Shown here in pieces: positions 24,031 to 60,503 of a stretch of 64,000 nucleotides of DNA. Each line of letters opens with the position of its first letter. Within the stretch, counting starts at the first letter, position 1. Source of the DNA: Agromyces sp. Leaf222 (lineage in GTDB: Bacteria > Actinomycetota > Actinomycetes > Actinomycetales > Microbacteriaceae); contig NZ_LMKQ01000001.1 in the NCBI RefSeq assembly GCF_001421565.1, positions 1,797,651 to 1,861,650 of the forward strand, in the 5' to 3' direction. The notes under the pieces are model-generated. The model worked only from the letters and a program-made list of their open reading frames with translations. It did not search any database and was not told the origin of the DNA. A program made the position numbers and the translations under genes.

Positions 24031-24134
24031 CCTGCGAGTCGGCGAGACGTCCCGGGTGTTGCTAGTTTTGGTGGGCGGCGCACGGGGTGCGGCGTCCCGG
24101 TTCCCACCGGTGAAGAACGGCGACGAGGAGCACC

Positions 24135-25019
24135 GTGTCCCCTGATGGCGAAGACGTCGTCGAGCTCGATCGCGGAGCGGCGGTGATCGCGCACAGTGCT
24201 CGAACGGATGTCGGGCGCGTGCGCAGCATGAATGAGGACGCGTTCCTCGCCGAGGCGCCCGTCTTCCTCGTGGCCGACGGCATGGGCGGCCATGCCCGCG
24301 GCGACGTGGCGAGCCGCACCGTCGTCGAGACGTTCCGTCGGCACCTGGCGCCGGGCGGCCCGTCGTCGCCGGAGCAGGTGCTCGACGCGATCCACTCGTC
24401 GAACGACGCCGTTCGCGCGCTCAGCGGCGAGGGAGACGAGGGCACGGCGGTGGCCGGCACGACCCTCGCGGGCGTCGCACTGGTCGATGCCGGCGACGGG
24501 GCGGGATTCCACTGGATGGCCTTCAACGTCGGCGACTCGCGCATCTACTCGTGGAACGGGCGCACGCTGAGCCAGCTGAGCGTCGACCACTCGGCCGTGC
24601 AGGAGCTCGTCGACGCCGGACTCATCCGGCCCGAGGATGCCGAGCGGCATCCAGACCGCAACGTGATCACGCGGGCGATCGGAGCCGACGACGTCGTCGA
24701 TCCCGACGTGTGGCTGATCCCGGCAGCAGGGCGTCAGGTCTTCCTCATCTGCTCCGACGGGCTCAGCAAGGAGGTCGACGACGAGTCGATCGCCCGGGTG
24801 CTCGTGGGCGACACGGGCCACGCGGCCGGGCTGGCCGGCGAACTCGTCGACCTCGCGCTCGAGCACGGCGGCCGTGACAACGTCACGGCGGTCGTCGTCG
24901 AGTCCGAGCTCGGCGCCCTCGACGACGAGACCACCAAGGATCGTGCGGCCACGGTGTCGGCGATCGAGGACACCACCCCGCGAACGAACGGAGGCGCCGG
25001 TGGCGACGTACACGGCTGA
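24135..25019 (+). CDS. PP2C-type Ser/Thr protein phosphatase
   Basis: 294 residues. All metal-binding PP2C motifs are visible: RSMNEDAF at 30-37, VADGMGGHARGD at 46-57, NVGDSRIY, CSDGLSKEVDD and GGRDNVTAVVV. It should dephosphorylate the products of the kinase two genes downstream (PstP/Stp role). It starts at GTG 24135 after GAGGAG. It is the first gene of a ten-gene co-directional run reaching to 44859 and overlaps the FHA gene by 20 bp. Confidence 0.95.
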   Translation: MSPDGEDVVELDRGAAVIAHSARTDVGRVRSMNEDAFLAEAPVFLVADGMGGHARGDVASRTVVETFRRHLAPGGPSSPEQVLDAIHSSNDAVRALSGEGDEGTAVAGTTLAGVALVDAGDGAGFHWMAFNVGDSRIYSWNGRTLSQLSVDHSAVQELVDAGLIRPEDAERHPDRNVITRAIGADDVVDPDVWLIPAAGRQVFLICSDGLSKEVDDESIARVLVGDTGHAAGLAGELVDLALEHGGRDNVTAVVVESELGALDDETTKDRAATVSAIEDTTPRTNGGAGGDVHG

Positions 25020-26262
25020 CCCGTCGGGGGAGCACCTGGCGGTCGTGCGCGGCGGCGTCGTGCTCATGCTGCCCGCCGCATCCGCCGGGCTCGTGGGCGA
25101 CCTGTGGCCGCGGCTCGTCGAGGCCGACCCGGTGCGTGCGGTGCTCGACCGCCTGACGGTCGACGGCCTCTCGGCGACGCCGTCGTTCGGCCTCGTCGTG
25201 CGCGCCGACGACGATGCCGTCGTGCGCATCGTCGTTCGCGGCGGGTTCTCGGTGCGCCTGGCGGGCGAACAGCTCACGGGCGAGGGCGTGTCGACCTGGG
25301 TCGAGCGTGCGATCGAGGGGTCGGCGGTCGAACTCGGTGCGACGGATGCCGCGGCGACCCCGGCTGCGGTCGCGCTGCCGATCATCGAGGGCGTCGTGTT
25401 CGCGGCGTCCGTCGACTCGGAGTCGATCGAGCCGGTCGCGGCGCCGGCCGAGCCGGTGCCGGTCGCGCCTGAGGAACGACAGGAGCCGACCGCCGGTGCC
25501 GAGCCGGAGCCCGCCGCCGACCCGTCCGCCGCCGACCCGTCCGCCCTGGACCTGCCCACCCCCGCCACGCCGGCTCAGCCGCTCTCGGCGCCGACGGCCT
25601 GGACTCCGCCCGCGATCGGGCACACCGGTCCCACGATCCCGGGCCCACCGGCCCCGCCGACCCCCGCACGGGCGTTCGACGCGATCGACGACTCGACCGT
25701 CGTCTCCCCGGTGACGGCCTCCATCGCACCGTCGTCGTCATCGACCGCCGGCACCGAGCAGACGATCGTCCCGCCCGGCGACACCCTCTCCGGCGACCAC
25801 GACGGCTTGACCATCGTCGGCGGCGACGTGCAGCGCCTGCGCGCCGAGCGCGACGCACGCCGAGCCGAGCAGTCGGCGTCGGGCGAGCAGGGCCGGCCCG
25901 CGGCATCCGCTGCCGTCGCCTCGCCGAGGCTCAGCCTGCGCATGCCCGACGGATCCCTCGAGCCGGTGACCCACGAGGTGCTGCTGGGGCGCGCGCCGAG
26001 CGTCAGCCAGGTCTCCGGCGGGCGCCTGCCGCGCGTGGTCGCGATCGGCGCAGGCGACCAGGACATCTCGCGCAATCACGTGCGCGTCACCGTCGAGGGG
26101 GACACCGTCGTGATCACCGACCTGCACTCGCGCAACGGCACGCATGTCGCGCAGCCGGGCAAGGCGCCCGTTCGCCTCCGCGCGGGCGAGCCGACGCCGG
26201 TGCTCGTGGGCACGGTCGTCGACCTCGGCGGCGGTTGGACCATCCAGGTGGTCGCCTCCTGA
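25000..26262 (+). CDS. FHA-domain protein with long Ala/Pro linker
   Basis: 420 residues. An N-terminal domain (about 1-125, starting ATYTADPSGEHLAVVRGGVV) is followed by a disordered Pro/Ala/Glu linker (~150-300), and then an FHA domain (~315-415) with the phosphothreonine-binding residues intact: LLGRAP, ISRNHVRV and LHSRNGT. It probably docks on threonine-phosphorylated partners, such as the neighbouring kinase. The start is GTG 25000, with GGAGG six bases upstream; the longer upstream frame overlaps the phosphatase. It joins the kinase gene through TGATG (26260-26264). Confidence 0.9.
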   Translation: MATYTADPSGEHLAVVRGGVVLMLPAASAGLVGDLWPRLVEADPVRAVLDRLTVDGLSATPSFGLVVRADDDAVVRIVVRGGFSVRLAGEQLTGEGVSTWVERAIEGSAVELGATDAAATPAAVALPIIEGVVFAASVDSESIEPVAAPAEPVPVAPEERQEPTAGAEPEPAADPSAADPSALDLPTPATPAQPLSAPTAWTPPAIGHTGPTIPGPPAPPTPARAFDAIDDSTVVSPVTASIAPSSSSTAGTEQTIVPPGDTLSGDHDGLTIVGGDVQRLRAERDARRAEQSASGEQGRPAASAAVASPRLSLRMPDGSLEPVTHEVLLGRAPSVSQVSGGRLPRVVAIGAGDQDISRNHVRVTVEGDTVVITDLHSRNGTHVAQPGKAPVRLRAGEPTPVLVGTVVDLGGGWTIQVVAS

Positions 26263-28013
26263 TGCGCCGCGCGACCTCCACCCCGCCCGAACTGCCGGGC
26301 TACACCCCGCAGGGCCTGCTCGGCTCCGGCGGCTTCGCCGACGTGTTCCTCTACGAGCAGCGGCTGCCACGGCGCAGGGTCGCCGTGAAGGTGCTCCTCA
26401 CCGAAGAGCTCGGTCGCGACACGCGCGCCCAGTTCGTCGCCGAGGCCAACCTGATGGCCCAGCTGTCGACGCACCCCTACATCGTCACGATCTTCCACGC
26501 GGATGTCTCGGCCGACGGCCGGCCCTACTTCGTCATGGAGTACTGCTCGGGTCCGAGCCTCGCCGAGCAGTACAAGCGCGCGCCGTTCGCCGTCGAGGAC
26601 GCCCTTCGCACGGGCGTGCGAATCTCGGGCGCGGTGGCCACGGCGCACGCGGCCGGCATCCTGCACCGCGACATCAAGCCCGCGAACGTGCTCACGAACG
26701 ACTACGGCTGGCCCGCGCTGACCGACTTCGGCATCTCGTCGAACCTCGACGGCGAGCTGCCGATGCACACGATGACGGTGCGCCCCGGCGACCAGGCGAC
26801 CGGAACCTCCGGCTCCGGCAGCACGGCCGCGGTCGGCATGAGCGTGCCGTGGTCGCCGGCCGAGATGTTCGAGGACGACCCGAGCCCCGACCCCCGCAGC
26901 GACGTCTTCTCGCTGGCCGCGACGGTGTACACGCTCCTCGCGGGGCGCTCGCCGTTCGAGATCCCCGGGCGCTCGAACGGCACGCTCGACCTCATCGGCC
27001 GCATCGAGCGCGGGGCGATCACGCCCATGGATCGCGCCGACCTGCCGCGCAGCCTCCAAGCGGTGCTCGCCAAGGGCATGGCGACCTCGCGCGACGACCG
27101 GTATCCGAGCGCGGTCGAGTTCGCCCGCGCCCTGCAGCGCGTCGAGCTCGAACTCGGCTACTCGGCGACCACGATCGAGGTGCCGAACCTCGCGGTCGTC
27201 GAGGAGCGCGGCACCGAAGACGCCGCGGATGCCACCAGGGCCCGCGCCGTGCGCACGATCGACGCGCAGGCCGCACCTCCCGCCGCGGGAGCCGGCGCCG
27301 CCACGGCACGTGCGGTCGGCGCACCCCCGAGCGCGCCGACCCCGACGGGGGCCGACGCGACCGTCGCGCGTGCGCCGCAGCCGGTCGCCGCGCAGCCGCC
27401 ACTGCCCGACGCCACGATGATGCGACCCGGCCGTCAGGCTCCGGTCGCCGATGCGCGCGGCTCCGCCGCGGTCGGCGCCGCCGCCGAGCCCGTCGATGAC
27501 GGCACGATCGTCAGGCCCACGGGCGCCGCCCGCGGCGACGCACGCGCCGCGAACGATGCGACGCAGGCCGCGGCATCCGTCACCGAGGTCGAGGCGCCGG
27601 CTCGGCGTTCGAGGGTCGGCCTCATCGTCGGCATCGCCGCCGGCGCCGTCGTGGCCGTCGCGGTCGTCGCCGCCATCGCCCTCTCCGGTGCGCTGCCGAA
27701 GCCCGAGGCCGAGGCACCCGTCAAGTCCGCGAGCCAGGACGCCGTCGCCGAGGCGACCGTCCCGGTTCCCGTGGTCGAACCCGGCGTGCCCTCCGCCGAC
27801 GGCACGAGCGTGTCGTTCGAGGTCTCGCTCGACGAGCCCGAAGAGGGGGACCGGTTCCGCTGGAAGCGCTCCGACGGCAGCGGCACCGTCGAGGTCGCCG
27901 ACGCGTCGCCGATCGTCGTCGCGGGAGTCGCGGCGGGGCAGACCGTCTGCATCGACGTGCAGACCCAGCGGGGCAGCCGCACCTCCGAGCCGGCGAAGGG
28001 GTGCACGCCGTGA
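26262..28013 (+). CDS. Transmembrane Ser/Thr protein kinase (PknB-like)
   Basis: 583 residues. Kinase domain ~13-275 with glycine loop LGSGGFADVF, K43, E61, H135-R-D137, N142 and D155-F-G all present, so it should be active. The activation segment is long and Gly/Ser/Thr-rich (about 158-198) and ends VPWSPAE instead of the usual GTxxYMAPE. A Pro/Ala juxtamembrane linker leads to one helix at ~453-475 and a small ~110-residue extracellular beta-type domain with two cysteines; it has no PASTA repeats. Context (phosphatase, three FHA proteins, giant surface proteins) implies control of the surface system. It overlaps the next gene by GTGA. Confidence 0.94.
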   Translation: MRRATSTPPELPGYTPQGLLGSGGFADVFLYEQRLPRRRVAVKVLLTEELGRDTRAQFVAEANLMAQLSTHPYIVTIFHADVSADGRPYFVMEYCSGPSLAEQYKRAPFAVEDALRTGVRISGAVATAHAAGILHRDIKPANVLTNDYGWPALTDFGISSNLDGELPMHTMTVRPGDQATGTSGSGSTAAVGMSVPWSPAEMFEDDPSPDPRSDVFSLAATVYTLLAGRSPFEIPGRSNGTLDLIGRIERGAITPMDRADLPRSLQAVLAKGMATSRDDRYPSAVEFARALQRVELELGYSATTIEVPNLAVVEERGTEDAADATRARAVRTIDAQAAPPAAGAGAATARAVGAPPSAPTPTGADATVARAPQPVAAQPPLPDATMMRPGRQAPVADARGSAAVGAAAEPVDDGTIVRPTGAARGDARAANDATQAAASVTEVEAPARRSRVGLIVGIAAGAVVAVAVVAAIALSGALPKPEAEAPVKSASQDAVAEATVPVPVVEPGVPSADGTSVSFEVSLDEPEEGDRFRWKRSDGSGTVEVADASPIVVAGVAAGQTVCIDVQTQRGSRTSEPAKGCTP

Positions 28014-28723
28014 GGCCGCTCCAGCCGCTCAAGGTCGAGTACTGCGGCGAGTGGTACACCGTCGACGAGGGCCGCACGTTCACGATCGGCCGCGAGTCCG
28101 ACCTCACGATCGACGAGAACCCCTACCTGCACCGCACGTTCCTCACCCTGAGTTCCGAGTTCGGCCTGTGGTGGCTCTCGAACGTCGGCCAACTGCTCTC
28201 GGCCACGGTGTCGGATGCCACGGGCAGCGTGCAGGCGTGGGTCGCGCCGGGTGCGAAGCTGCCGCTCGTCTTCCAGCAGGTGCAGGTGCTCTTCAGCGCG
28301 GGCGCGACGACCTACGAGTTCTCGATCCACGCCGAGGAGGACTTCTACAACACCTCGCTCACGGCCACCCCGGCCGACGGCGGCACCACGATCATGCCCG
28401 TCACGCTGACCTCGAGCCAGCGGCTGCTCGTGGTCGCCCTCGCCGAGCGCGTGCTCGTGCAGCCGTCAGCCGGGCGCGCGACGGTGCCCACCTCGGCCGA
28501 GGCCGCCGCTCGTCTCGGCTGGAGCATGACGACCTTCAACCGCAAGCTCGACAACGTCTGCGAGAAGCTCGATCGCCTCGGCGTCGACGGGCTCCGCGGC
28601 GGGCGCGGCAAGCTCGCGACGAACCGGCGCATGCGACTCGTCGAGTACGCCGTCGCGACGCGGCTGGTGAGCGTCGACGACCTCCTCCTGCTCGACCGCG
28701 CTGCGGCGGAGCCCGAGGAGTGA
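28010..28723 (+). CDS. Divergent FHA-like domain fused to a helix-turn-helix
   Basis: 237 residues. The N-terminal ~110 residues resemble an FHA sandwich (FTIGRESDLTI, then LHRTFLTLS and LSNVGQLLS), but the conserved Ser of the binding loop is replaced and the NG turn is altered, so phosphothreonine binding is doubtful. The C-terminal half has a sigma-4/LuxR-like HTH (SAEAAARLGWSMTTFNRKLD). It could be a phosphorylation-linked transcription regulator of the cluster. The GTG start overlaps the kinase stop (28010-28013). An earlier GTG at 28001 is possible. Confidence 0.75.
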   Translation: MRPLQPLKVEYCGEWYTVDEGRTFTIGRESDLTIDENPYLHRTFLTLSSEFGLWWLSNVGQLLSATVSDATGSVQAWVAPGAKLPLVFQQVQVLFSAGATTYEFSIHAEEDFYNTSLTATPADGGTTIMPVTLTSSQRLLVVALAERVLVQPSAGRATVPTSAEAAARLGWSMTTFNRKLDNVCEKLDRLGVDGLRGGRGKLATNRRMRLVEYAVATRLVSVDDLLLLDRAAAEPEE

Positions 28724-28748
28724 CACCGCTGACGCTGCTCGTTCCGCA

Positions 28749-31700
28749 GTGCTGAGGCGGCTCCTCGGCACGCGTCCGCGCGAGGTCGCCGCCCTCGTCG
28801 TGCTCGCGACGATCGTCATCGTGCCGGTCGGCGTTGCGGTGCTGCATCCCGGATATCCCGTGGTCGACGTCGACCTCGACGCCCGAGACGTGTGGGTCAC
28901 CAACGGCGACGAGCTCCTCGCCGGCCGACTCAGCAAGCCCATCGCCGAGCTCGACGGTGCCGTGAACACCACCTCGCGCGACATCGACGTGTTCCAGCAC
29001 GGGGAGGAAGTCTTCCTCCACGACCGTTCCTCAGGCACGGTGCAGCGCATCGATCCGTCGTTCACCACCCTGACCGAGGCGATGAGCGTCCCGCTCGACG
29101 CGGAGATCGCCTACGGCGGCGACGTGCTGGCGATCATGGATCCCGGTTCCGGATCGGTCTGGACGGTCGATGCGGCGCTGCCGCTCGCCTTCGACGCGGC
29201 GACGGCGCAGCCGCTGACGAAGGTCGGTCCGGGCGGTCATGTCGCCGTCTCCGACGACGGAACGGTGTTCGCGACCTCCCCGCGCGATCGCGAGCTCGTG
29301 CGCATCGAGCCGGGTGCCGAACCCACCGCCTCGGCGCTGCCTCGTCTCGGCGACCATCAGGTGACCGCGGTCGGCCGGACCCCGGTCGTGCTCGATCTCG
29401 AGGACGACCGGCTGCTCGTCGGAGCCGACGAGATCGACCTTCCCGCGCACGCGCTGCGCCTCCAGCAATCCGGTCCCGCCGACGACTCGGTGCTCGTGGC
29501 GACCGGATCGGCGCTGCTCGACGTGCCCTTGACGGCCGGGGCCGCGGTGGAGAGCATCGACCCCGGGTTCTCGGGATCGTTCGATGACCCCGCCGACGTC
29601 TCGGCGCCGGTGCGGCTCGAGGGCTGCGCACACGCGGCCTGGGCGGGTGCGGCCAGGTACCTCCTCGCCTGCGACGGCGTCGACCCCCGCTCGGTCGACC
29701 TCGACCGGCAGACGCGCGGGTCGACCCTCGAATTCCGGGTCAATCGCAGCGTCATCGCGCTCAACGACCTGACCACCGGCAACACCTGGCTGCTCGACGA
29801 CGACCTGCGTCTCGTCGACGACTGGGAGCAGGTCACCCCGCCCGAGGAGGAGGACGCCGAGGACGGGGAGGAGACCGCCTCCACCGAGAGCTTCGAGGAC
29901 ACCCTCGCCCAGCGCACCGACGAGAACCGTGCGCCGACCGCTCGCGACGACGAATTCGGCGTGCGTCCCGGACTCACGACCGTGATTCCCGTGCTCGACA
30001 ACGACACCGACCCCGACGGCGACGTGCTCACCATCTCGGCCGTGCCCGAGGTATCGGCCTCGCAGGGCAGCCTCCAGCTCATCGACGGCGGTCGCGCGCT
30101 CCAGTTCACGCCGGCAGAGGGGCTCTCCGGCTCCCTCTCGTTCAGGTACACGGCCAACGACGGGCGACCGGGCGGGGTCGCGGAGGCGCTGGCGTCGATC
30201 TCGGTGCATCAGGCGGACGTCGACGAGCCGCCGGTCGCGCGCAGGGAGACCGTCACCGCCGTCGAGCAGGGCGGATCCACCACGGTCAACGTGCTGCAGG
30301 ACTGGATCGATCCCGATGGCGACGCCGTCTTCCTCGTCTCTGCGACGCCGAAGTCCGGCGATCGTGCGAGTGCCGCCCCCGACGGCGAGCTGACCTTCGA
30401 GCACACCTCCGCCGAACTCGGGTCGAAGGAGGTCGTGTACGTCGTCTCCGACGGACACGGCACCGCGAGCGGCGTGCTCACCGTCGACGTCGAACCCGCC
30501 GGCACCTTGGCGCCGATCGGCACGCCCGACCACGTCCAGACCTTCGCCGGCCGAACGGCGGACATCCAGCCGCTCGGCAACGACGCGAGCCCGTCCGGTG
30601 CCCCGCTCGCCCTCATCGGCCTCGAAGAGGTGCCCGACGGCGTCGAGGTCGAGCCGAACCTCGAGCGCGGCTCGATCGGGTTCACGGCGGCGGAGCCGGG
30701 TTCCTACGAGGTGATCTACACGGTCGGCGCCGGCACGGAGACGAGCGTCGGCCTCGTCAGGGTCGATGTGCTCGAACCGCCCGACGGGGCACCCCCGCCG
30801 ATCGCGGTCACCGACATCGCGTACCTGCGACCGGGGGAGCCACTCTCGATCCCGGTGCTCGCGAACGACGTCTCGCCGAGCGGCGACGTCCTCGCGGTGC
30901 AGTCCGTGCAGACCGACGGCCTCGACATCGCGCTGACGGTCGAGATGCTCGGCAACGCCGTCGTGCGTGCGACGCCGTCGTCGGCGCTCGTCGAGCAGAC
31001 GCAGTTCCACTACACCGTGAGCGACGGGACGTCGACCTCGACGGCCGGCATCACGGTGGTGCCCGTGCCCCCGCTCGTGAAGCACCAGCCGCCGGTCGCG
31101 GTCGACGACTCCGCGCGGGTGCGTGCCGGCGACATCGTCACGGTGCCGGTGCTCGACAACGACCGTCATCCCGATCGAGCCCCGCTCAGCGTCGATCCCG
31201 AACTCGTCGTTCCCGATGGCACGCCCGGCCTGGCCTTCGTGAACGCCGACACCGTGCGCTACCAGGCTCCGGCCGAGCCCGGCGTCTACAGCATCGACTA
31301 CCGGGTGGTCGATCCGTACCGCGAGAGCGCGGTCGCCACGGTGCAGTTCGTCGTGGTCGGCCAGGCCGGGGAGAACCTGCCGCCCGTCGCGGTGCCGGCG
31401 ACCTCGCGACTGTTCGCCGACTCCACGGTGAAGATCCCGGTCGCGCTCGACGGCCTGGACCCCGACGGGGACTCGGTGGTGCTCCGGAGCATCACGACGT
31501 CGCCCAAGCTCGGGCGCATCGTGTCGACCGATGCCGGCACCATCGAATACCAGGCGTATCCGGGCATGGCGGGAACCGACAGCTTCGCGTACGAGGTCGA
31601 GGACACCGCGGGGGCGACCGCCGAGTCGACGATCAGGGTCGGGGTCGTTCCACGGCCGGCGACCGATTCACCGCCGAACGCCGTCGACGACACGGTCGAG

Positions 31701-33998: not shown

Positions 33999-34177
33999 AC
34001 GGGCTCCGGATCAGCCGCACGCATGCGGAGGTCCCCCTCCGTATCGCTTGGACATCGAAGTACCATGGGAAGCCCTGCCCATTCGGGCGTGCTCGCCGAC
34101 CGTGTTAGCGTGGGCCGCGGTCCGCCGAGCAGGCGACCCCCGCCGCCCATACCGACGGATGCAACGAGGAGTAGAGA
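33999..34177. other. Spacer between the two giant genes
   Basis: 179 bp with no ORF of note and no strong terminator. It is the longest gap in the cluster, so an internal promoter is possible, but I find no convincing -35/-10 pair. GAGGAG at 34165-34170 is the ribosome site for the TTG start that follows. Confidence 0.5.
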
Positions 34178-37100: not shown

Positions 37101-39556
37101 TGCCGCCGAGCGCGGTCGACGACTCGATCGAGATGAAGCCCGGTCGCACGGCGTCGGTCGAGGTCCTGCTCAACGACTCCGACCCGAGCGGCTACAGCCT
37201 CCGGGTCGAGAGCCTGCCCGATGTCGACGAGGGGCTCGAGGCCGAGATCCGCGACCTCCGACGCGTCGTCGTCAAGGCGCCCGACCAAGAGGGCGCCTAC
37301 ACGATCCGCTACGAGATCTCGAACGGCCATGGCGGTGCGGACGCCGCATTCCTCCAGATCGCGGTGACCGACGACGCGGTGATCCTCCCGCCGACCGCCG
37401 AAGACCAGGTGATCGAACCCGAAGAGGTGCTCGACGGCGAAGACGTGACCGTCACGCCGCTCCGCGATGCGACGAACCCGGGCGGGCTCGTCGAGGACCT
37501 CGTCGTCACCGTCGAGGGTCCCAATGCCTCGAAGGCCGAGGTCGACTCCGACGGTCGCATCACGGTGAAGCCCGGGCGCGATCGGTATGCCGTCGCGTAC
37601 CGGTTGACGAACGACCTCGACGACCTCTCGGCCATGGCCTTCGTCATCGTGCCGCCCGTACCCGCCGGCGACGACGCCGTCGAGGAGACGCAGCGGCCTG
37701 AGGAGACGCCGAAGCCGAAGACGCCAGAGGAGCTGCAGGCCGAGGAGAAGGCGAAGTTCCCGGCGCCGTACCTGAAGGACCTCGATCCGATCATCGTGCC
37801 CATGAACGGCCGCATCGCGTGGAGCGTCAACGACCTCGTCGAGGTTCCCTCGGGCAACCCGGCGCTCATCCTGACGGCGAACGCGAGCGCCACCGACGAT
37901 GAGGTCCTCGTCGACGGCACGCACCTGCAGTACATCCCCAGGCAGGACTTCCGCGGCTCAGCCTCCCTGACGTTCCAGGTCACCGACGGCAAGAGCGCAG
38001 ACGACCCGATCGGCCGCACCGCGATCCTGACGCTGCCGATCACCGTCGGCGACCCCGACTTCAACGACACGCCACCGAGCTTCACGCCGCGGTCGGAGAC
38101 CATCGAGGCAGGCGAGGCGGCGCGTACCGTCGACCTCCGGCAGTCGAGCGACCAGCCGAACCGCGACAACATCGAGCGGTTCACCTACACGAACCTCGGC
38201 GGTACGTCCGAGGACATCCAGGCCGAGATCATCGACGGCGCGACGCTCTCGTTCAAGGCACCGCTCGGGGTGCAGCCCGGCACCGAGGCGAGGCTCACCT
38301 TCGACGTGAACTTCAACGACTTCACGGTGCCCGGCTACGTCGACGTGAAGGTCGTCTCGTCGACACGGGCGATGCCGCGCACCGTCGACGACGGCCCGTT
38401 CGAGATGAATCGCAGCGACGCGAAGCTCATCGACGTGCTCGGCAACGACTTCAACCCGTTCGAGCAGGACGGCGTGCCGCTGCGGGTGGTCGGAGCCGAG
38501 ATCGATCAGGTCTCCGTCGGCTCGACCGCCTCCGTCTCGTTCACCTCGACCGACATCACGGTGCGCACCGGCGCGGCCTTCACCGGCACGGTGAGCGTGA
38601 TCTACCGCATCGAGGACGGCACGAAGGACCCGTTGCGTCAGACCACCGGTCGCGCCACCGTGATCGTGCGCGCGCCACCCGACCAGCCGAACAGGCCTGC
38701 AGCGAGCGCTTCGGATGCCGCGGCCACCGTGCGGTGGAACGAACCGGCCACGAACAACTCGCCCATCACCGGCTACGAGGTGCAGTGGGACGGCGGCAGC
38801 AGGTCGTTCGGCGCTGGTGCGGCCGGATCGGACCAGCCGATCACCGGGCTGACCAACGGCACCACGTACACGTTCCAAGTGCGTGCTCAGAACGAGAAGG
38901 GCTGGGGCGAGTGGTCGTCGGCCAGCGCTGCGGTGACCCCGTACGGCACCCCGTCCGACGTCCCGTCGGTCAGCGCGTCGCCTCGCGGCTACGGACCGAC
39001 AGCGGTCGACTTCTCGTGGGGGGCTCCGAACATCAGCGGCGGCGGTTCGATCCACTACCAGATCAACCTCGACAACGGCGGCTGGTCCGACATCGGCGGT
39101 GGGCGCTCCCACGCCATCGGCGGCATCGGCGTCGGCACGCACAACGTCCAGGTCCGCGCGGTCAACGACGGCAGCGGTCGGGCGGGAGGCGCGGCATCGC
39201 GCAACTTCACCGTCGAGCAGCAGCCGCCGCCGGTCCCGTCGGGCCGGATCGGCAAGGGGCCGAGCCGGTCGTGCGACAGCGGTGGCGGCGGCTGCGCCGA
39301 GGTCCGCATCACGTGGTACGACATGGCGCCCGGGCGCTACAAGGTGTTCGCGACGGTGAACGGCGCCTCGTGCTGCAGTTACCAGCAGACCGTCGACATC
39401 GGAGCGAACGGCCAGTTGCAGCTGCTGAACCACCTCGGTCGCCGCAGCGAGAACATCGCCGTGCGGTTCGAGGCACAGGGAGGCGGCGCCGTCTCCAAGA
39501 CCCTCGGCGAGATCAGCGGGTCGACGTGGAACAACATGGGATACAACACGTGGTGA
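34178..39556 (+). CDS. Giant Ig-like / FnIII repeat surface protein, paralogue 2
   Basis: 1792 residues, with the same architecture as the preceding protein and clear end-to-end similarity up to the FnIII region: membrane helix (about 15-35), N-terminal domain starting ARDVWVTNAEELLAGRL, acidic linker, and about ten NDTDPDGD-type Ig-like units. It differs by a charged Glu/Lys/Pro-rich linker near residues 1168-1195 and by its last ~105 residues, a distinct domain with four cysteines (SRSCDSGGGGCAEV and NGASCCSYQ). The start is TTG 34178, supported by GAGGAG eight bases upstream; no ATG/GTG lies nearby in frame. Confidence 0.88.
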   Translation: MAGFTSWLRARKTLASGVAIAVLVGAPVTVAVLHQGFPVTDPDLRARDVWVTNAEELLAGRLNRQIEELDAAVSTASNETDVFQNGDDAFVYDPAVGSIERIDPSFTTLSQRIDVPPASKVAYGGDVIAVLSPAGELWNVQAGAELQFDWRGTDPIAKLGEDAEVAVSDTGTIFATSIAKERVQRFERGKADAPQTTKIADLGEHQIAAIGERAVIFDEERNAVIVDGRVTELDDAGLRLQQSSAENDTAYVATATGLVAVPLDGGKVRELDAEAAVGSAGAADVAAPVWLNGCVHGAWAEAGRYLASCDGEKPRLLDIDQPTAAARLEFRVNRDVIALNNLTNGNAWLVDSDLRLVDNWEEVTPPEESDELEGDEKSAQQTFEDTIAERTDQNRPPVAREDDFGARPTRTTILEVLENDTDPDGDVLTVSSVTGIPESMGRIEQIDGGRALQFSPAEGAAGTVSFRYSVDDGRGGVAEASVNVRVVPESENTAPVSVRSGAISVEQGQQVSYNVVTDWIDPDGDDLYLVNASPVGGDSVRFSPDGNLTFQHKSAELGQKEVQFTVSDGQTAATGMLTVEVKPSGSLNPIGTPDFTRVFAGEKTLIEPLVNDVSPSGAPLSLLGIEEAPESAEITPNLERGSITFSSSEVGDYVFVYNLGAGATVSVGLIRVQVVEAPAEALPPIAVKDTAYLRPGEPLSIPVLANDVSPSGRVLAVQSVDDTATDGLVSVELLTNTVARVTASAALDRQLQFAYTVSDGVGTATTTVTVVPVPPLVKNQPPVATEDTAIVRAGDIVTVPVTRNDFHPDAAAFHVLPELAFGDDFKGLAFVDDDTVRYQAPEEAGVYSLSYAIGDDHEQTAKAKLTITVVGRGSEGNRAPLPTPITSRTFEGSAVKIDIPLDGLDPDGDSVTLTGISSTPSLGRVVERTSTSLTYEALTGSAGTETFTYEVRDTYGASATGTIRIGVIPRPVVQLPPSAVDDSIEMKPGRTASVEVLLNDSDPSGYSLRVESLPDVDEGLEAEIRDLRRVVVKAPDQEGAYTIRYEISNGHGGADAAFLQIAVTDDAVILPPTAEDQVIEPEEVLDGEDVTVTPLRDATNPGGLVEDLVVTVEGPNASKAEVDSDGRITVKPGRDRYAVAYRLTNDLDDLSAMAFVIVPPVPAGDDAVEETQRPEETPKPKTPEELQAEEKAKFPAPYLKDLDPIIVPMNGRIAWSVNDLVEVPSGNPALILTANASATDDEVLVDGTHLQYIPRQDFRGSASLTFQVTDGKSADDPIGRTAILTLPITVGDPDFNDTPPSFTPRSETIEAGEAARTVDLRQSSDQPNRDNIERFTYTNLGGTSEDIQAEIIDGATLSFKAPLGVQPGTEARLTFDVNFNDFTVPGYVDVKVVSSTRAMPRTVDDGPFEMNRSDAKLIDVLGNDFNPFEQDGVPLRVVGAEIDQVSVGSTASVSFTSTDITVRTGAAFTGTVSVIYRIEDGTKDPLRQTTGRATVIVRAPPDQPNRPAASASDAAATVRWNEPATNNSPITGYEVQWDGGSRSFGAGAAGSDQPITGLTNGTTYTFQVRAQNEKGWGEWSSASAAVTPYGTPSDVPSVSASPRGYGPTAVDFSWGAPNISGGGSIHYQINLDNGGWSDIGGGRSHAIGGIGVGTHNVQVRAVNDGSGRAGGAASRNFTVEQQPPPVPSGRIGKGPSRSCDSGGGGCAEVRITWYDMAPGRYKVFATVNGASCCSYQQTVDIGANGQLQLLNHLGRRSENIAVRFEAQGGGAVSKTLGEISGSTWNNMGYNTW

Positions 39557-39617
39557 ACGCGAGCCGCGTCAGGGACATGAACGGCGCCGACCCCGGCCCG
39601 GAGATCAAGGAGCACCA

Positions 39618-40586
39618 ATGGCAGTAACGCAGGAGCAGGCGCAGTGGTTCCAGGACGCCTTCTCGAAGCTCGTCGACAACATCGACCAGGCGATCCTCGG
39701 CAAGCGCCATGTGATCGAGCTCGTCGTCACGGCGCTCCTCTCCGACGGGCATGTGCTGCTCGAGGACTTCCCCGGCACGGGTAAGACCGTGCTCGCGAAG
39801 GCGCTCGCGAACACGCTCGACGGCACGCACTCGCGCATCCAGTTCACGCCCGACCTGCTGCCGTCCGACGTCACGGGTGTCACGATCTTCGACCAGGGCA
39901 AGGGGCACTTCGAGTTCCACCGCGGCCCGATCTTCGCGTCGATCGTGCTCGCCGACGAGATCAACCGCGCGAGCCCGAAGACCCAGTCGGCGCTCCTCGA
40001 GGTCATGGAGGAGGGTCGTGTCACGGTCGACGGCGTCGGCTACGAGGTCGGCAGCCCGTTCATGGTCATCGCGACGCAGAACCCGGTCGAGCAGGCCGGA
40101 ACCTATTCGCTTCCCGAGGCGCAGCTCGACCGCTTCCTCATCAAGACGTCGCTCGGATACCCCGACCACGAGACCGCCGTCACGCTGCTGCTCGACTCGG
40201 CCAACCGCGCCCGTGCCGGCAAGGTCACCCCGATCATCGCGTCGAGCTCGGTGACCACCATGGCCCAGCTCGCGTCGGAGGTCTACGTCGACGCCTCGGT
40301 GCTCTCCTACCTCAACGAGCTGGTCACCGGAACGCGCGAGCACAAGGACTCCGCGCTCGGCGTCAGCATGCGCGGCGCGCTCGCGCTGGCCCGTGCGACC
40401 AAGACCTGGGCCATCGCGCACGGCCGCACGTACGTCACGCCCGACGACGTGCGCGAGCTCGCGGTGTCGGTGCTCGCGCACCGCATCATCGTCGACCCCG
40501 AGGCCGAGTTCGCCGGCGCCACCGCCGAGGACATCGTCGCCTCGGTGATCGTCGACGTCGCCCCGCCCGCCTACCGCGCCGCATGA
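39618..40586 (+). CDS. MoxR-family AAA+ ATPase (cluster copy)
   Basis: 322 residues. Walker A GTGKT at 53-57, Walker B LADEINRA at 111-118, sensor 1 ATQNPVE and an Arg-containing sensor 2 (SMRGALALARA) are intact. MoxR ATPases act as chaperones for maturation or insertion of partner proteins, usually with a DUF58 protein, which follows here in ATGA overlap. The start ATG 39618 has AAGGAG just upstream. In this context it may mature the giant surface proteins. Confidence 0.95.
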   Translation: MAVTQEQAQWFQDAFSKLVDNIDQAILGKRHVIELVVTALLSDGHVLLEDFPGTGKTVLAKALANTLDGTHSRIQFTPDLLPSDVTGVTIFDQGKGHFEFHRGPIFASIVLADEINRASPKTQSALLEVMEEGRVTVDGVGYEVGSPFMVIATQNPVEQAGTYSLPEAQLDRFLIKTSLGYPDHETAVTLLLDSANRARAGKVTPIIASSSVTTMAQLASEVYVDASVLSYLNELVTGTREHKDSALGVSMRGALALARATKTWAIAHGRTYVTPDDVRELAVSVLAHRIIVDPEAEFAGATAEDIVASVIVDVAPPAYRAA

Positions 40587-41881
40587 GCGCCGAGCCGCGC
40601 GCGCCCCGACCCCCGTCGCAGGCGCGCATCGCTGCACGGGCCGTCGGGCGTTCGCTCGCGGCATCCGCTCGCTCGGCGCAGGGGGGCGTCGCTCGCGGCG
40701 CCCGTCGGGTCGCCGACTGGGCCGCGCCGGTCACCGGCGTGATCTCGGTCACCGGATGGCTCGTGCTGCTCGCCTCGCTCGTCTCGTTCATCGTGGCCTG
40801 GGCGCTCGGCTGGATCGAGCTCGCGTTCCTCGGGGCGACCCTGCTCGCCGCGATGCTCGTGAGCGTGCCGTTCACGCTCGGCCGAATGCACTACCGCGTC
40901 GAGGTCGCCCTGCAGCCGACGCGCGTCGTCGCCGGGGAACGCGCCTTCGGTCGTCTCGCGGTCACGAACACGGGCGCGAAGACGTCGATCCCGTCGCGAC
41001 TCGAGCTGCCCGTCGGCGCCGGTCTCGCCGAGTTCATCGTGCCTGCGCTGCCGGCCGACGACGAGCACGAGGAGCTCTTCGCCGTGCCCACCAACCGCCG
41101 CGCGGTCATCGTCGCCGGGCCTGCGGTCTCGGTGCGCGGCGACCAGCTCGGCCTGCTGCGCCGCATCGTGCGCTGGAGCGAGCCCGTCGAGCTCTTCGTG
41201 CACCCCGTGACCGCACGCCTCAAGCCGTCGGCGGCGGGGCTCGTGCGCGACCTCGAGGGCGAGGTCACGAAGACCATCACCGACAACGACATCTCCTTTC
41301 ACGCCCTGCGGGCGTACCAGCCCGGCGATGCGCTCCGCAACGTGCACTGGCGCACCTCCGCGCGCACAGGCCAGCTCATGGTGCGCCAGTACGAGGAGAC
41401 CCGCCGATCGCAGCTCGCGCTGCTGCAGCGCACCGAACGGGCGAACTACGCCTCCGACGAGGAGTTCGAGCTCGGCGTCTCGGTGCTCGCCTCGCTCGGC
41501 GTGCAGGTGATCCGCGATGCGACGCGCGTCGACGTGCTCACCGAGGAGCTCAGCCTTCGCACGGCGACCCCGACCGCGCTGCTCGACGACACGAGCCGCA
41601 TCGCCGCGGCATCCGGAGCCTTCGACTCGATGCGGTCCTTCGTGCGCGATCGCACCAAGCGGCTGTCGCCGCCGAGCGTCGCGATCATCGTCGCCGGCTC
41701 GATGGTGCCGCTGGCCGAGTACCGGTCGGCTGAGACCGTCTTCGGGGCCGACACGCAGACCCTGGGCTTCCGCGTCGAGCTCGGCGCGACCTCGCGCATC
41801 GCGAAGGTCGCCGGAACCACCGTCGTCACGGTCGGCGCCCTGTCCGACCTCTCGCGCCTGGTCGGGAGGGTGCGCCCGTGA
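40583..41881 (+). CDS. DUF58-domain membrane protein (cluster copy)
   Basis: 432 residues. Two adjacent helices (about 51-96) are followed by a beta-rich domain and the DUF58 core YQPGDALRNVHWRTSARTGQLMVR near 249-272. DUF58 proteins have a VWA-related fold and partner with MoxR. The start overlaps moxR by ATGA, and the end overlaps the next gene by GTGA, so the three are translationally coupled. Confidence 0.92.
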   Translation: MSAEPRAPRPPSQARIAARAVGRSLAASARSAQGGVARGARRVADWAAPVTGVISVTGWLVLLASLVSFIVAWALGWIELAFLGATLLAAMLVSVPFTLGRMHYRVEVALQPTRVVAGERAFGRLAVTNTGAKTSIPSRLELPVGAGLAEFIVPALPADDEHEELFAVPTNRRAVIVAGPAVSVRGDQLGLLRRIVRWSEPVELFVHPVTARLKPSAAGLVRDLEGEVTKTITDNDISFHALRAYQPGDALRNVHWRTSARTGQLMVRQYEETRRSQLALLQRTERANYASDEEFELGVSVLASLGVQVIRDATRVDVLTEELSLRTATPTALLDDTSRIAAASGAFDSMRSFVRDRTKRLSPPSVAIIVAGSMVPLAEYRSAETVFGADTQTLGFRVELGATSRIAKVAGTTVVTVGALSDLSRLVGRVRP

Positions 41882-44169
41882 ACCGCATTCCGCGTACCGC
41901 CGTGACCGACCTCGTCGTGCTGTCGGTGCTCTCGCTGCTCGCCGTGCTCGGCTACGAGACGAGCTTCGGCGACCTCGACTTCCTGCTCGCGGCCGTCGCG
42001 GGCCTCGTCGTCGGCACGGCCGCCGCGCTCCTCGGCACCGTCCTGCGGCTGGGCGTGCTGACCACGGTCGTGCTCGGCCTCGCCATGTACTTCGTGCTCG
42101 GCACGCCGTTCACGATGCCGGAGTCGGCGATCTTCGGGGTGCTGCCGAGCCTCACCTCGCTCGCCGGCCTCGCGATCGGCGCGGTCTACGGCTGGGCCGA
42201 CATCCTGACGATCGGCACGCCGGTCGAGGCTCCCTACTACGTGGCCGTGGTGCCGTACGTCGCCGCATGGGCGGTCGCCCTCGTCGGCTCGATGCTCGTG
42301 CTGCGCTGGCTGCCGAAGCGCCGAACCGTCGCCCGCAGTGCCGTGATCCTCATCGGCCCGGTGCTGCTGTTCATCTCCGGCATCCTCCTCGGCACCGACG
42401 AGGCGTTCTACGCCGGGGTGCGCGGAGTGGCGTTCGCCGTGATCGCGCTGGTCTGGCTCGCCTGGCGACGGGGATCGGATGTCGAGACCGACGCAGCCGG
42501 CGCGCGACGGCTCCGGGCGCAGAAGGTCCGCGGATCCGCCGTGGTCGTGGCGGGCGCCGTCGCGATCGGCGCCGTGGCCGGGCTGGCCGTCGCCCCGATC
42601 GCGCCGGAGCGTTTCGTGCTTCGCGATCAGGTCGTGCCGCCGTTCGACCCGCTCGAGTTCTCGAGCCCGCTCGCCGGGTTCCGCAACTACACGAAGGACC
42701 TCGCCGAGGAGCCGTTGTTCACCGTCACCGGGCTCGAACCCGGCGACATCATCAGGCTGGCCTCGATGAACTCCTACACGGGCCGGCTCTGGAACGTCGC
42801 CGGCCCGGGCGACTCCGACGACGACGGCGGCTACGCCATCACCGGACCGACGCTGCCGCAGCCGCCGCTCGCGACGCTCGGCAGCACGCGCTCGATCGAG
42901 CTCGACGTGTCGGGGTACGACGACGTCTGGCTCCCGACCGTCGGATACGGCACCGAGCTGAAGCTCGACGACACCGGCAGCGCCGGCCGTTCGGGCGACC
43001 TGCGCTACAACGCCGCGGCGGGCACGGCCGTGCTGACGAGCGGCGTCGGCGAAGGCACCCGCTACCGGCTCGACTCGCGCATGCAGGTCGAACCGAGCGA
43101 CGAGGACCTCGCCGACGTGCCGGTCGCCACGATCGAGCTCCCGCCGGTCGAGAACGTTCCCGACGTCGTCACGGCGAAGGGCGAGGAGTACGCCGGCGAC
43201 GCGACCACGCCGATCGAGCAGCTCCGCAACATCGAACGCGGCCTCAAGACCAACGGATTCCTCAGCCACGGTCTCGCGTCCGACTCGATCGCCTCGCGAG
43301 CAGGCCACGGTGCCGACCGGCTCATCGAGCTCTTCACGCGGTCCTCGATGGTCGGCGACGAGGAGCAGTACGCCTCGGCGATGGCCCTCATGGCTCGTCA
43401 GCTCGGGTATCCGTCGCGCGTCGTCATGGGCTTCGCACCCGAGGTCGGAGAAGACGACGATTCCGTCGAGGTGGTCGGCGAAGACGTCACGGCCTGGGTC
43501 GAGGTGCCGTTCGAAGGGGTCGGCTGGGTCTCGTTCCGGCCGACGCCCGACCAGGTCGACGCACCGCAGGACCAGACGCCGAAGCCGAAGTCCGAACCGC
43601 AGCCGCAGGTGCGCCAGCCTCCGCGCGCCGAGCACGTCGAGGACGACCTGCTCTCGACCGTCGAGATCGACGACACCGACGACGAGGACAAGGACCGCCC
43701 CTTCCGGATTCCGGGCTGGGTGTGGGTCACGGCGGCATCGCTCGGCATCCCGGCCGCGATCGTGTTCCTTCCGATGCTCTTCGTCGCGATGGCGAAGGAG
43801 CGGCGTCGCCGCCGCCGTCGTGGCCGCGGCAACGAGATCGCGGCGGCCGCGGCCTGGGACGAGCTCATCGACCGCTACGCGGAACTCGGCTTCGAACCGC
43901 CCGAGCGCTCGTCGCGGCTGCAGACCGCACGCGCGCTCGAGCACCAGGCGGTCGAGCAGGGGGTCCTGCCGAACTCGGATCCGGGCTCGCTCCGGCTGAC
44001 CGCACTCGCGGCGAGCGTCGACCGCGACGTCTTCGACGGCCAGCAGGTCGCCTCCGAGACCGTCGTGAAGCGATGGAGCGAAGCGGATGCCGCGGCAGCC
44101 GTCGTATCGGCGGCAGTCGGGCGCTCGCGCCGGCTCATCGCCCGATACCGCATGCGCCGACGTCGGTAG
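41878..44169 (+). CDS. TgpA-like transglutaminase-fold membrane protein lacking Cys and His
   Basis: 763 residues: a multi-helix N-terminus (about 8-225), an extracellular transglutaminase-like domain (about 430-560), a Pro/Lys/Gln linker, one helix near 613-640 and a cytoplasmic tail. Aligned to the second copy at 61879, the catalytic Cys is Glu at about 495 (GDEEQYASAMAL versus GYCVHFASTMAV) and the catalytic His is Thr at about 538 (DVTAW versus DLHAW). It is probably an inactive pseudo-enzyme with a structural or binding role. The start is GTG 41878 in the GTGA overlap. Confidence 0.9.
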   Translation: MNRIPRTAVTDLVVLSVLSLLAVLGYETSFGDLDFLLAAVAGLVVGTAAALLGTVLRLGVLTTVVLGLAMYFVLGTPFTMPESAIFGVLPSLTSLAGLAIGAVYGWADILTIGTPVEAPYYVAVVPYVAAWAVALVGSMLVLRWLPKRRTVARSAVILIGPVLLFISGILLGTDEAFYAGVRGVAFAVIALVWLAWRRGSDVETDAAGARRLRAQKVRGSAVVVAGAVAIGAVAGLAVAPIAPERFVLRDQVVPPFDPLEFSSPLAGFRNYTKDLAEEPLFTVTGLEPGDIIRLASMNSYTGRLWNVAGPGDSDDDGGYAITGPTLPQPPLATLGSTRSIELDVSGYDDVWLPTVGYGTELKLDDTGSAGRSGDLRYNAAAGTAVLTSGVGEGTRYRLDSRMQVEPSDEDLADVPVATIELPPVENVPDVVTAKGEEYAGDATTPIEQLRNIERGLKTNGFLSHGLASDSIASRAGHGADRLIELFTRSSMVGDEEQYASAMALMARQLGYPSRVVMGFAPEVGEDDDSVEVVGEDVTAWVEVPFEGVGWVSFRPTPDQVDAPQDQTPKPKSEPQPQVRQPPRAEHVEDDLLSTVEIDDTDDEDKDRPFRIPGWVWVTAASLGIPAAIVFLPMLFVAMAKERRRRRRRGRGNEIAAAAAWDELIDRYAELGFEPPERSSRLQTARALEHQAVEQGVLPNSDPGSLRLTALAASVDRDVFDGQQVASETVVKRWSEADAAAAVVSAAVGRSRRLIARYRMRRRR

Positions 44170-44172
44170 ACT
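44167..44172 (+). promoter_or_regulatory. Putative -10 box (leaderless) of the last FHA gene
   Basis: TAGACT includes the stop codon of the preceding gene (44167-44169) and ends 6 nt before GTG 44179. Confidence 0.45.
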
Positions 44173-44178
44173 GCCTGC

Positions 44179-44859
44179 GTGGTCGCACCGGAGTTCATCG
44201 TCCCGCCGCCCGGGTTGATTCCCGAGGTGCCGAAGCCAGACGCGCCGAAGCCGGACGCGCCGATCGCCGGAGCGCCGACCGCTGACGTGCCGATCGTCGA
44301 CGCGCCGATCGCCGGCGTGCCGATCGCCGATGCGCCCGGTGCAGTCGGCCTCACCCGACCGCCGGCGGAGCGCGCCGACCAGGGCGACCACACCGTGCGC
44401 GCGCTGCCAGGGCGCGCATTGCCAACGTTCACGCCGTTGCCGAGCGGCCCGCCCGCGGCATCCCTCGCAATGCCGCAAGCGCTTCGGCCTGCCATGCCGG
44501 AGTCCGCGGCCGCAACGTCGTTCAGCCTCACCTCTGCGGCGGGCGAGACGGTCGAGATCGTGGGCCGCGTCGTCGTCGGGCGCAACCCGACGATCGGCGC
44601 CGACCAGGTCGGTGCCACCCCGATCGCGCTCATCGACCCCACCCGCACGGTGTCGAAGACGCACGCGCTCATCGAGGTCCGAGGGGGACAGGTCGTGATC
44701 ACCGACCTGCACTCGACGAACGGCGTCGCGGTGCAGGCGGGCGGCGGCGAGCTCACCGTGCTCGACCCCGGAGCACCCGCCGAACTCGAGGTCGGGGCGA
44801 CCCTGCGACTGGGCGACCTCGCGCTGACGCTGCGCCGGACCACCAGCGGCACGGTGTAG
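44179..44859 (+). CDS. FHA-domain protein with pentapeptide-like Pro/Ala repeats
   Basis: 226 residues. The N-terminal ~55 residues are a five-residue periodic Pro/Ala/Asp tract ([20 protein letters not shown]). The C-terminal ~110 residues are an FHA domain with [17 protein letters not shown] and LHSTNGV intact, so phosphothreonine binding is expected. It closes the ten-gene cluster, and the leuC leader begins nine bases after its stop. A -10 box suggests it can also be transcribed separately from GTG 44179. Confidence 0.88.
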
Positions 44860-59404: not shown

Positions 59405-60501
59405 GCGAGGCATCCGTGAGCCGGGCGCCCGCAGCGCAGACCGACACCGCGCAGACCGACACCGCGCAGATCGACCCCGCGCACCCGGGCATCGTGCTCG
59501 ACGAGGTCGACGACGCGGCATCCGTGATGTCGATCGACGAGGTGGGGGTGCTGGCCGCCCGCATCGTGACGAACGTCGAGACCGTCATCGCGGGCAAGCG
59601 CGACGCGATCACCGCGGCCCTGACCGTGCTGCTCGCCGAGGGCCACCTGCTCATCGAAGACGTTCCGGGCGTCGGCAAGACGATGCTCGCGAAGGCGCTG
59701 GCCCGCTCGGTGGGCAGCAGCGTGAGCCGCATCCAGTTCACCCCCGACCTGCTGCCGAGCGACGTGACCGGGGTCTCGGTCTTCGACCAGGCGAGCCGAC
59801 GCTTCGAGTTCAAGCGCGGTCCGGTGTTCTCCAACATCGTCATCGGCGACGAGATCAACCGTGCGAGCCCGAAGACGCAGGCCGCCCTGCTCGAGTGCAT
59901 GGAGGAGCGCCAGGTCACGGCCGACGGCACGACCTACCTCCTCGACCTGCCGTTCACCGTGGTGGCCACGCAGAACCCCGTCGAGATGGAGGGCACGTAC
60001 CCGCTGCCCGAGGCGCAGCGCGACCGCTTCATGGCCCGGGTGTCCATGGGGTACCCCTCAGCGGTCGACGAGCTCGCGATGCTCTCCACGCGCGAGACGT
60101 CCAGCCCGCTCGACAGCCTCGAAGAGGTCGTCTCGGTCGACGAGCTGCGGGCGATGATCCGCGCCGTGCGGCACGTGTTCACGTCGCAGCCCGTCAAGGA
60201 GTACGCCGTCGAGCTGGCGAGGGCCACTCGCGAGGACCGCCAGCTCCGGCTCGGCGCGAGCCCTCGCGCCACGCTCCAGCTCATCCGCGCGGCGAAGGCC
60301 CACGCGGCCATGCACGGTCGCGAGTTCGTGCTTCCCGACGACGTCGACGCCCTGGCGGTCGCCGTGCTCGCCCACCGGCTCGTGCCGACCAGCCGGGCCG
60401 TCGGCTCGCACGATCGCGACAGCGGGCCGCTGATCGACGCCATCGTCGGTCGCATCATCGCGCAGACGCCCGTGCCCGTCGGGAGCGCTCGAAGGAACTG
60501 A
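59401..60501 (+). CDS. MoxR-family AAA+ ATPase (second copy)
   Basis: 366 residues. After a ~45-residue extension with a repeated TDTAQ stretch come Walker A PGVGKT near 89-94, Walker B IGDEINRA, sensor 1 ATQNPVE and [13 protein letters not shown]. It resembles the copy at 39618 in the core but has a different N-terminus. It starts at GTG 59401 over the coaD stop and heads a MoxR-DUF58-transglutaminase cassette. Confidence 0.95.
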
Positions 60502-60503
60502 TC

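Follow-up and report, generated by a model that had tools for sequence, protein, structure and literature searches.

A PFNA-type gene cluster of Agromyces combines predicted giant surface proteins, a MoxR ATPase and a transglutaminase-like protein without its catalytic triad

The stretch considered here, which we call the window, comprises 64,000 nucleotides of the genome of Agromyces sp. Leaf222 (family Microbacteriaceae; contig NZ_LMKQ01000001.1, positions 1,797,651 to 1,861,650), and its subject is a cluster of ten genes at 24135-44859. Reading frames and matches to Pfam and NCBIfam place all ten on the plus strand, as a preliminary description of this DNA had stated. That description also had most of the genes overlapping by 4-20 bp. 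Overlaps do occur at five of the nine junctions, yet they measure 20, 1 (or 28, depending on the start of the kinase), 13, 4 and 4 bp, and the other four junctions are gaps of 25, 179, 61 and 9 bp, with 179 bp between the two giant genes and 61 bp between the second giant and MoxR. The cluster is almost certainly a member of the actinobacterial gene module known as the PFNA operon of Bifidobacterium.

The cluster opens with a PP2C Ser/Thr phosphatase (24135..25019; PF13672, E 2.9e-13), the counterpart of prpC, which carries the motifs DGMGG and GGRDN and scores 202 bits against the NCBIfam family Stp1/IreP, under its cut-off of 230. FHA protein 1 (25000..26262; PF00498, E 4.5e-8) starts, as read from the sequence, at a GTG codon 20 bp inside the end of the phosphatase gene, and consists of a long Pro/Ala-rich linker with [DE]xT[IV]V motifs and a C-terminal FHA domain with SRNH. 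The Ser/Thr kinase, counterpart of pkb2, lies at 26235 or 26262..28013, the ATG at 26262 being the likelier start (PF00069, E 6.9e-32). It has the motifs VAVK, HRDIKPAN and DFG, one transmembrane (TM) helix placed by hydropathy at amino acids (aa) 463-481, and an ectodomain of about 110 aa that gives no convincing Pfam match and no PASTA match at E 10. Against PknB_PASTA_kin the kinase scores 145 bits where the cut-off is 450, and it is not classed as a PASTA-type kinase. An impression by eye that the ectodomain resembles FnIII was dropped, as Pfam gave no support at E 10.

Two further FHA proteins complete this set. FHA protein 3 (44179..44859; PF00498, E 6.5e-9) closes the cluster and has the phospho-binding loop SKTH. 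The other lies at 28001..28723 and is an FHA-fold protein with a C-terminal helix-turn-helix-like part (FHA-HTH). It matches no Pfam family at E 0.01, and its FHA fold is visible only in the structural model (pLDDT 72, pTM 0.47), for which Foldseek returns 6ccd (E 3e-5) and OdhI (4qcj, E 3e-4). The usual phospho-binding loop of FHA domains is of the SRxH type; in the alignment FHA-HTH keeps GR, has the loop DENPYLHR, and does not show the phospho-binding Ser/His arrangement. A protein of Agromyces sp. PvR057 shares 97% identity with it. Three FHA-fold proteins are therefore present, as the preliminary description held when it cast them as readers of phosphorylation, but one of them is altered at the very loop that would do the reading.

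The largest genes encode giant 1 (28749..33998; 1749 aa), the counterpart of fn3, and giant 2 (34178..39556; 1792 aa), its tandem paralogue. The two are 48% identical over 1764 columns in blastp, and their last tens of residues cannot be aligned. Each has seven Big_9 stretches and one fn3 stretch that are significant alone in Pfam, and hydropathy shows a single N-terminal hydrophobic helix and no other (aa 13-31 in giant 1). From its N-terminus, giant 1 consists of the TM helix, a predicted beta-propeller at about aa 47-356, an Ig/Big_9 rod, an FnIII part and a Cys-containing end. The domain that follows the TM helix has no Pfam match; its structural model is a beta-propeller (pLDDT 89.4, pTM 0.85). 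Among the Foldseek matches listed, with query TM-scores of about 0.27 to 0.65, its solved neighbours are largely propellers; the first is a surface-layer YVTN propeller with PKD domains, and later ones include BamB.

Downstream of the giants follow a MoxR AAA+ ATPase with Walker A and Walker B motifs (39618..40586; PF07726, E 5.6e-62), the counterpart of aaa-atp, and a DUF58 membrane protein with two TM helices by hydropathy (40583..41881; PF01882, E 2.1e-11). A metal site in the DUF58 protein was considered and rejected, as DxSxS does not occur in the window protein; across the comparison loci introduced below, the string is found somewhere in 11 of 56 DUF58 frames. The next protein (41878..44169), which we call TGM as the counterpart of tgm, matches both Transglut_core (PF01841, E 4.1e-14) and TgpA_N (PF11992, E 1.1e-9). 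Hydropathy and sequence give it an N-terminal TM bundle, an outer domain at about aa 240-619, a TM helix at 620-638 and a basic, Arg-rich tail, which by the positive-inside rule points to the cytosol.

The PFNA operon of Bifidobacterium comprises pkb2, fn3, aaa-atp, duf58 and tgm, joined in some species by prpC, a hypothetical gene and fha; in B. longum GT15 all eight genes are co-transcribed, and in B. longum the Pkb2 kinase phosphorylates the MoxR protein of its own operon (PMC8430577). The five core genes of the window follow the same order, with FHA-HTH and the second giant inserted, and its proteins match a locus of Bifidobacterium gallicum (L132) in gene order. Giant 1 aligns with its counterpart there at 31.7% identity over 1605 columns (E 6e-167), and identities are 55% for MoxR, 30% for DUF58, 30% for TGM and 45% over 126 columns for PP2C. 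The kinase match covers only 46 columns because the B. gallicum locus begins within the kinase. The preliminary description knew of no described function for the whole assembly, a statement that no longer holds given that the same core is the PFNA operon. The operon has been stated to be restricted to Bifidobacterium (PMC6803598, PMC10688814), and a mycobacterial moxR operon has been likened to it (PMC12067865). In the open-access literature searched, we found no paper on a PFNA giant outside Bifidobacterium or on the missing triad described below.

The gene set is widespread and recurs as a set. The window genome alone holds four giants in three clusters, A (the window), B and C, each of which has a giant, MoxR, DUF58, TGM, kinase, PP2C and FHA gene. 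Of 99 genomes drawn from the order, 51 contain a match (E 1e-3 or better) to a profile built from the N-termini of these four giants, and in 49 the match reaches 1e-16 or better; G093 and G023 are the only matching genomes without a match better than 1e-16. We compared 55 giant loci, that is, 54 stretches plus the three own clusters, with the overlapping pairs L055/L094 and L058/L059 merged; 11 short, contig-edge or weak places were left out (G043, G037, G066 contig 140 twice, G086, G093 twice, the second places of G056, G059 and G012, and G023). MoxR is present at 52 of the 55 loci, DUF58 at 54, TGM at 54, the kinase at 53, PP2C at 43, FHA at 46 and FHA-HTH at 22. The seven kinds of gene named for clusters A to C occur together at 43 loci and the five core genes at 51, two of which are clusters B and C, and for this reason we regard the set as more than chance. 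Twelve more stretches beside loci that end early or lack parts held a kinase and FHA-HTH in eight cases and nothing in four. The preliminary description treated the ten genes as one assembly, a view that would suffer if giants regularly occurred without kinase or MoxR genes. They do not, and the genes form a conserved unit: besides the counts above, a single orphan giant was seen (L047, contig C11 of G005). Neither the 25 kb or so upstream of this orphan nor the 24 kb or so past its end holds a cluster gene (L047, L318, L319), and its genome has a cluster elsewhere (L053).

Further from home, a giant match of any kind at 1e-3 is present in 37 of 148 genomes in a draw from the class and in 22 of 197 in a draw from the phylum, a good number of these matches being weak or short. 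The phylum draw yielded seven loci outside the order, of which L311-L315 have a giant, MoxR, DUF58 and TGM, L316 has MoxR, DUF58 and TGM, and L317 has a weak giant match only. Clusters therefore occur in other classes of the phylum too. The best 80 of 167 named loci, which do not include B. longum, are nearly all from Bifidobacterium, with others from Cellulomonas, Actinotalea, Flavimobilis and a Cellulomonadaceae contig. The restriction of the PFNA set to Bifidobacterium thus fails in the sequence data examined, which leaves the membership of the Agromyces cluster itself unaffected.

The giants vary among these loci. At L315 (5411-7768) a short giant of 786 residues stands alongside MoxR, DUF58, a kinase and a TGM without Cys; by eye, a TM helix and a propeller-like part are followed by a linker that is acidic and rich in Pro, by FnIII-like parts and by an end that contains Cys. 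Judging from this short form, the Ig rod of the giant seems replaceable. Tandem giants also occur in a second family (L055/L094 in G081, L058/L059 in G038), and an FHA-HTH gene is present in all three tandem cases seen. Matching clusters in two relatives of the same genus (G051, G020) have one giant where the window has two; a giant has therefore been gained or lost within the genus.

Across the same loci, the enzymes of the cluster mostly keep their motifs. Walker A and B are kept in all 54 MoxR frames (from 52 sequences; the 56 DUF58 frames come from 54 loci), a DGMGG-type motif in 41 of 43 PP2C proteins, and an HRD-type pattern in 38 of 45 kinases. Three more kinases have close variants of that pattern and four are without it, one being cut by the end of its locus and three being degenerate members of a single family, f19 (L070, L085, L092). 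These three keep similarity over the whole domain, have lost both HRD and DFG, and are candidate pseudokinases.

TGM behaves quite differently. At the Cys-His-Asp positions of the triad, the window protein has Glu-Thr-Arg, and so lacks the triad of a TgpA-type enzyme. The catalytic Cys is found at none of 54 order loci, His at 10 and Asp at 29. A genus draw from Bifidobacterium, made by profile, gave 75 strong matches, of which 70 were examined (seven more genomes had weak matches only): Cys and His are each present in 0 of 70, and Ser occupies the Cys position in 63. Among the best 80 of the 167 named loci, Cys is found in none of the 79 resolved by pattern and the last has Ser and Lys by eye, in a scan that favours Ser at this position because its patterns contain GDSEQY or GWV[PA]F[YH]PT. 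These three sets overlap in part. Outside the order, none of six TGM proteins has Cys in the EQ[YF]A motif.

Controls point the other way. Cys and His are found by pattern in 33 of 34 transglutaminases outside such clusters, and in the last (L099) Cys, His and Asp are there by eye; MoxR-DUF58-TgpA loci without a giant keep the triad in 21 of 21 cases, Asp or Glu being allowed, although the controls are mostly the best scorers for PF01841, a choice that favours intact enzymes. Five non-cluster transglutaminases of the window genome that were not chosen in this way all have Cys and His. One giant-free set lies within the window itself, about 15 kb from the cluster (59527..63996, plus strand, L095), its transglutaminase lying at 61825-63996 and showing GYCVHFA, HAWPE and FEP; the relative G020 has a similar set near its own cluster (L341). 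Since giant-free MoxR-DUF58-TgpA loci keep the triad and cluster TGMs do not, loss of the triad goes with the giant. From the residues at these positions, we consider it very probable that the cluster TGM has lost transglutaminase catalysis, a little short of near certainty, as most Bifidobacterium loci have Ser where the Cys would be. The preliminary description called it a transglutaminase-fold protein, and the fold domains do match, but it is not a classical transglutaminase.

Co-divergence was measured as the rank correlation of tree distances, partial given MoxR and kinase, over the 42 of 54 loci with every part. The propeller of the giant correlates with the TGM outer domain at 0.70, with the TGM membrane bundle at 0.56, with the TGM tail at 0.32 and with DUF58 at 0.35, while DUF58 and the TGM outer domain give 0.05. 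The value of 0.70 was reached by none of 500 label permutations and 0.05 does not exceed all of them; 0.32 and 0.35 also exceed all 500, so that only the difference in strength is informative. In all 300 subsamples the TGM outer domain ranked above both the tail and DUF58, and when the other Agromyces loci were removed the values were 0.76 for the outer domain, 0.43 for the tail and 0.29 for DUF58. Over the 41 of 54 loci with every part in a second comparison, however, the rod correlates with the TGM outer domain at 0.82 and the propeller at 0.75; given each other, they reach 0.60 and 0.37. No docking site is located by these data, because the correlation with the TGM outer domain is no weaker for the rod than for the propeller, and an earlier idea that the propeller is a specific docking site was withdrawn. 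What is observed is that the entire giant diverges in step with the TGM outer domain, and some extracellular pressure acting on both could also lie behind this.

The linkers of the phospho-signalling proteins carry a further pattern. Ahead of FHA domains there are 21 instances of the motif [DE]xT[IVM][VIM], where shuffled sequences give 1.4-1.5 (at most 6); C-terminal to the kinase domain there are eight, where shuffles give 1.1-1.3 (at most 5). The linker segments were cut from stop-to-stop frames and may extend upstream of the true starts. When the motif was reversed, or given a basic or Ala form, counts were at, below or close to the shuffled level, and Ser versions occurred once against 1.8 and twice against 0.8. 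In cluster C, directly after the PP2C gene, L008 (4172-4909) encodes a protein with one TM helix and five DETIVVxR-like repeats, which has kin in L044 and L048 and could be an array of FHA ligands.

Starting from the observed gene set, its spread, the triad loss, the propeller model, the motif enrichment and the co-divergence, we infer every functional step of the following proposal. The giant would be anchored by its one N-terminal helix, with the beta-propeller next to the membrane, and would project the Ig rod with its FnIII part and variable end. TGM, being without transglutaminase catalysis, would offer its outer domain as a receptor or clamp for the giant. From the cytosolic side, DUF58 and the MoxR ring would act on this membrane complex and assemble, release or reset it. 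The kinase and PP2C would set the state of the complex by modifying MoxR and the Thr motifs in the kinase and FHA linkers, FHA domains would read those motifs once phosphorylated, and FHA-HTH may carry the state to transcription. In this way we infer control of giant export or organisation by a phospho-switch. Taken as a whole, the idea of a MoxR machine under kinase control, working on a surface rod via a non-catalytic transglutaminase-fold receptor, has, in our judgement, an even chance of being right; its particular claims that the pseudoenzyme is a receptor, and that MoxR drives rod handling under a phospho-switch, are put forward a little more cautiously. We speculate, more tentatively again, that PFNA represents the gut-borne branch of a machine found throughout the actinobacteria: a MoxR-DUF58-TgpA set may have lost its enzyme activity on gaining a giant rod, its dead transglutaminase may have become the transmembrane receptor of that rod, the kinase-phosphatase-FHA switch may drive the MoxR ring to load, hold or release it, and cytokine binding in bifidobacteria may be a late side use.

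Several observations weigh against this proposal. PP2C is missing at 12 of the 55 loci and FHA at nine, some of which are cut by contig ends, and at two loci (L049, L061) there is no MoxR beside the giant. Control by the kinase is not universal, given that the three f19 kinases are without HRD and DFG. The Thr motif occurs in only 17 of 70 FHA proteins and five of 44 kinases; four of the five kinases are from Agromyces, and nine of the 17 FHA loci belong to the family of the window. Because it is limited by lineage in this way, we treat the motif as support and not as a defining feature. Finally, by sequence alone some residual chemistry in TGM is possible, since Asp is kept at 29 of 54 loci, His at 10 of 54, and Ser stands in for Cys in 63 of 70.

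Other explanations were considered alongside the MoxR machine. It is unlikely, in our view, that the cluster works as a MoxR-type conflict system, with the giant as an effector aimed at other cells and MoxR determining the threshold. Such MoxR-vWA ternary systems have been described in Actinobacteria (PMC7159879), and the ends of the two giants differ; however, Pfam matched no toxin, nuclease or peptidase domain in the cluster, the window DUF58 is without DxSxS and thus does not have the metal site of a vWA partner, the giant is anchored in the membrane, and DUF58 appears nowhere in the main text of the paper on those systems (PMC7159879).

We also find it quite improbable that the cluster is a host-immune sensor, the role proposed for PFNA, according to which the FnIII protein is a cytokine binder and the kinase a sensor of the host. 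Agromyces is mainly a soil genus, and the cluster is spread through the order to which the window genome belongs. The proposal draws on B. longum, where FN3 fragments are reported to bind TNF-alpha and TNF-alpha to induce PFNA genes (PMC10688814, PMC12607495). The PFNA papers call WSxxS a cytokine receptor motif, yet it occurs in 31 of 51 distinct giants from outside Bifidobacterium, in five of six from Bifidobacterium, and in 10% of shuffles. Being common in non-Bifidobacterium giants, it is not a mark of host contact, and looks like a common feature of these giants. Host signalling in gut species may be a later co-option.

A merely historical neighbourhood, with the phospho block and the giant-MoxR block as independent units, is very unlikely. 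The position of the phospho block changes between families, upstream in some and downstream in others, and the distances of MoxR, DUF58 and kinase correlate with one another more than with the giant, both of which would fit separate histories. Despite this shuffling, the kinase has stayed near 53 of 55 giant loci, the three paralogous clusters of one genome each keep all seven gene kinds, and all eight genes are co-transcribed in B. longum (PMC8430577). Covalent cross-linking of the giant rods into a surface layer by the transglutaminase, which the Transglut_core and TgpA_N matches and the in vitro activity of P. aeruginosa TgpA (PMC3507681) might suggest, is scarcely credible and was set aside after the triad check: all 54 order loci and all 70 from Bifidobacterium are without the Cys, and His is present at 10 of the former and none of the latter.

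As to the surroundings of the cluster, a TerC-family gene lies upstream, and an aconitase-family (leuC-like) gene, an EPSP-synthase-family gene and gpsA lie downstream. A simple consensus scan, which is weakly informative at this G+C content, found no promoter-like or terminator-like sites in 23900-43800.

These results bear on the published host-immune role, which rests on two claims: that the operon occurs only in bifidobacteria, and that it encodes a transglutaminase. In the sequence data examined, the first fails and the second concerns a protein without the catalytic residues. Relatives from outside the gut are consequently the place to seek the original function. The three paralogous clusters of one genome offer a built-in test of partner specificity, and the contrast within the window between an intact and a dead MoxR-DUF58-TgpA set bears on the role of MoxR-DUF58 pairs generally.

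Among known systems, the PFNA operon is the closest, sharing the five core genes and their order, accessory PP2C and FHA genes, and direct sequence homology; cluster C has nearly the same gene order. The window differs in that its PP2C-FHA block lies upstream, an FHA-HTH gene is added and the giant is duplicated in tandem, and its genome, from another family of the order, has three clusters. Giant-free MoxR-DUF58-TgpA loci have the same three protein families in the same order, but keep the triad and have no giant, PP2C or FHA match, although three of the 21 have a kinase match of 138-150 bits. Pseudomonas aeruginosa TgpA is likewise a membrane protein with an outer transglutaminase-fold domain, whereas its triad is present and it is active in vitro (PMC3507681). 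The MoxR-vWA ternary conflict systems, with their VMAP, iSTAND, FtsH and beta-propeller components, also join a MoxR AAA+ ATPase to partner proteins; here DUF58 takes the place of vWA, the propeller sits on the giant and not on vWA, and no effectors were matched. Lastly, the OdhI/GarA and DgcB switches share with the cluster an acidic, Thr-containing motif ahead of the FHA domain. The structural neighbours of the FHA-HTH fold include phospho-OdhI, and DgcB together with a phosphorylated peptide from its own N-terminus. The proteins here are different ones, and it is by analogy only that this suggests self-binding of the same type in the FHA proteins of the cluster.

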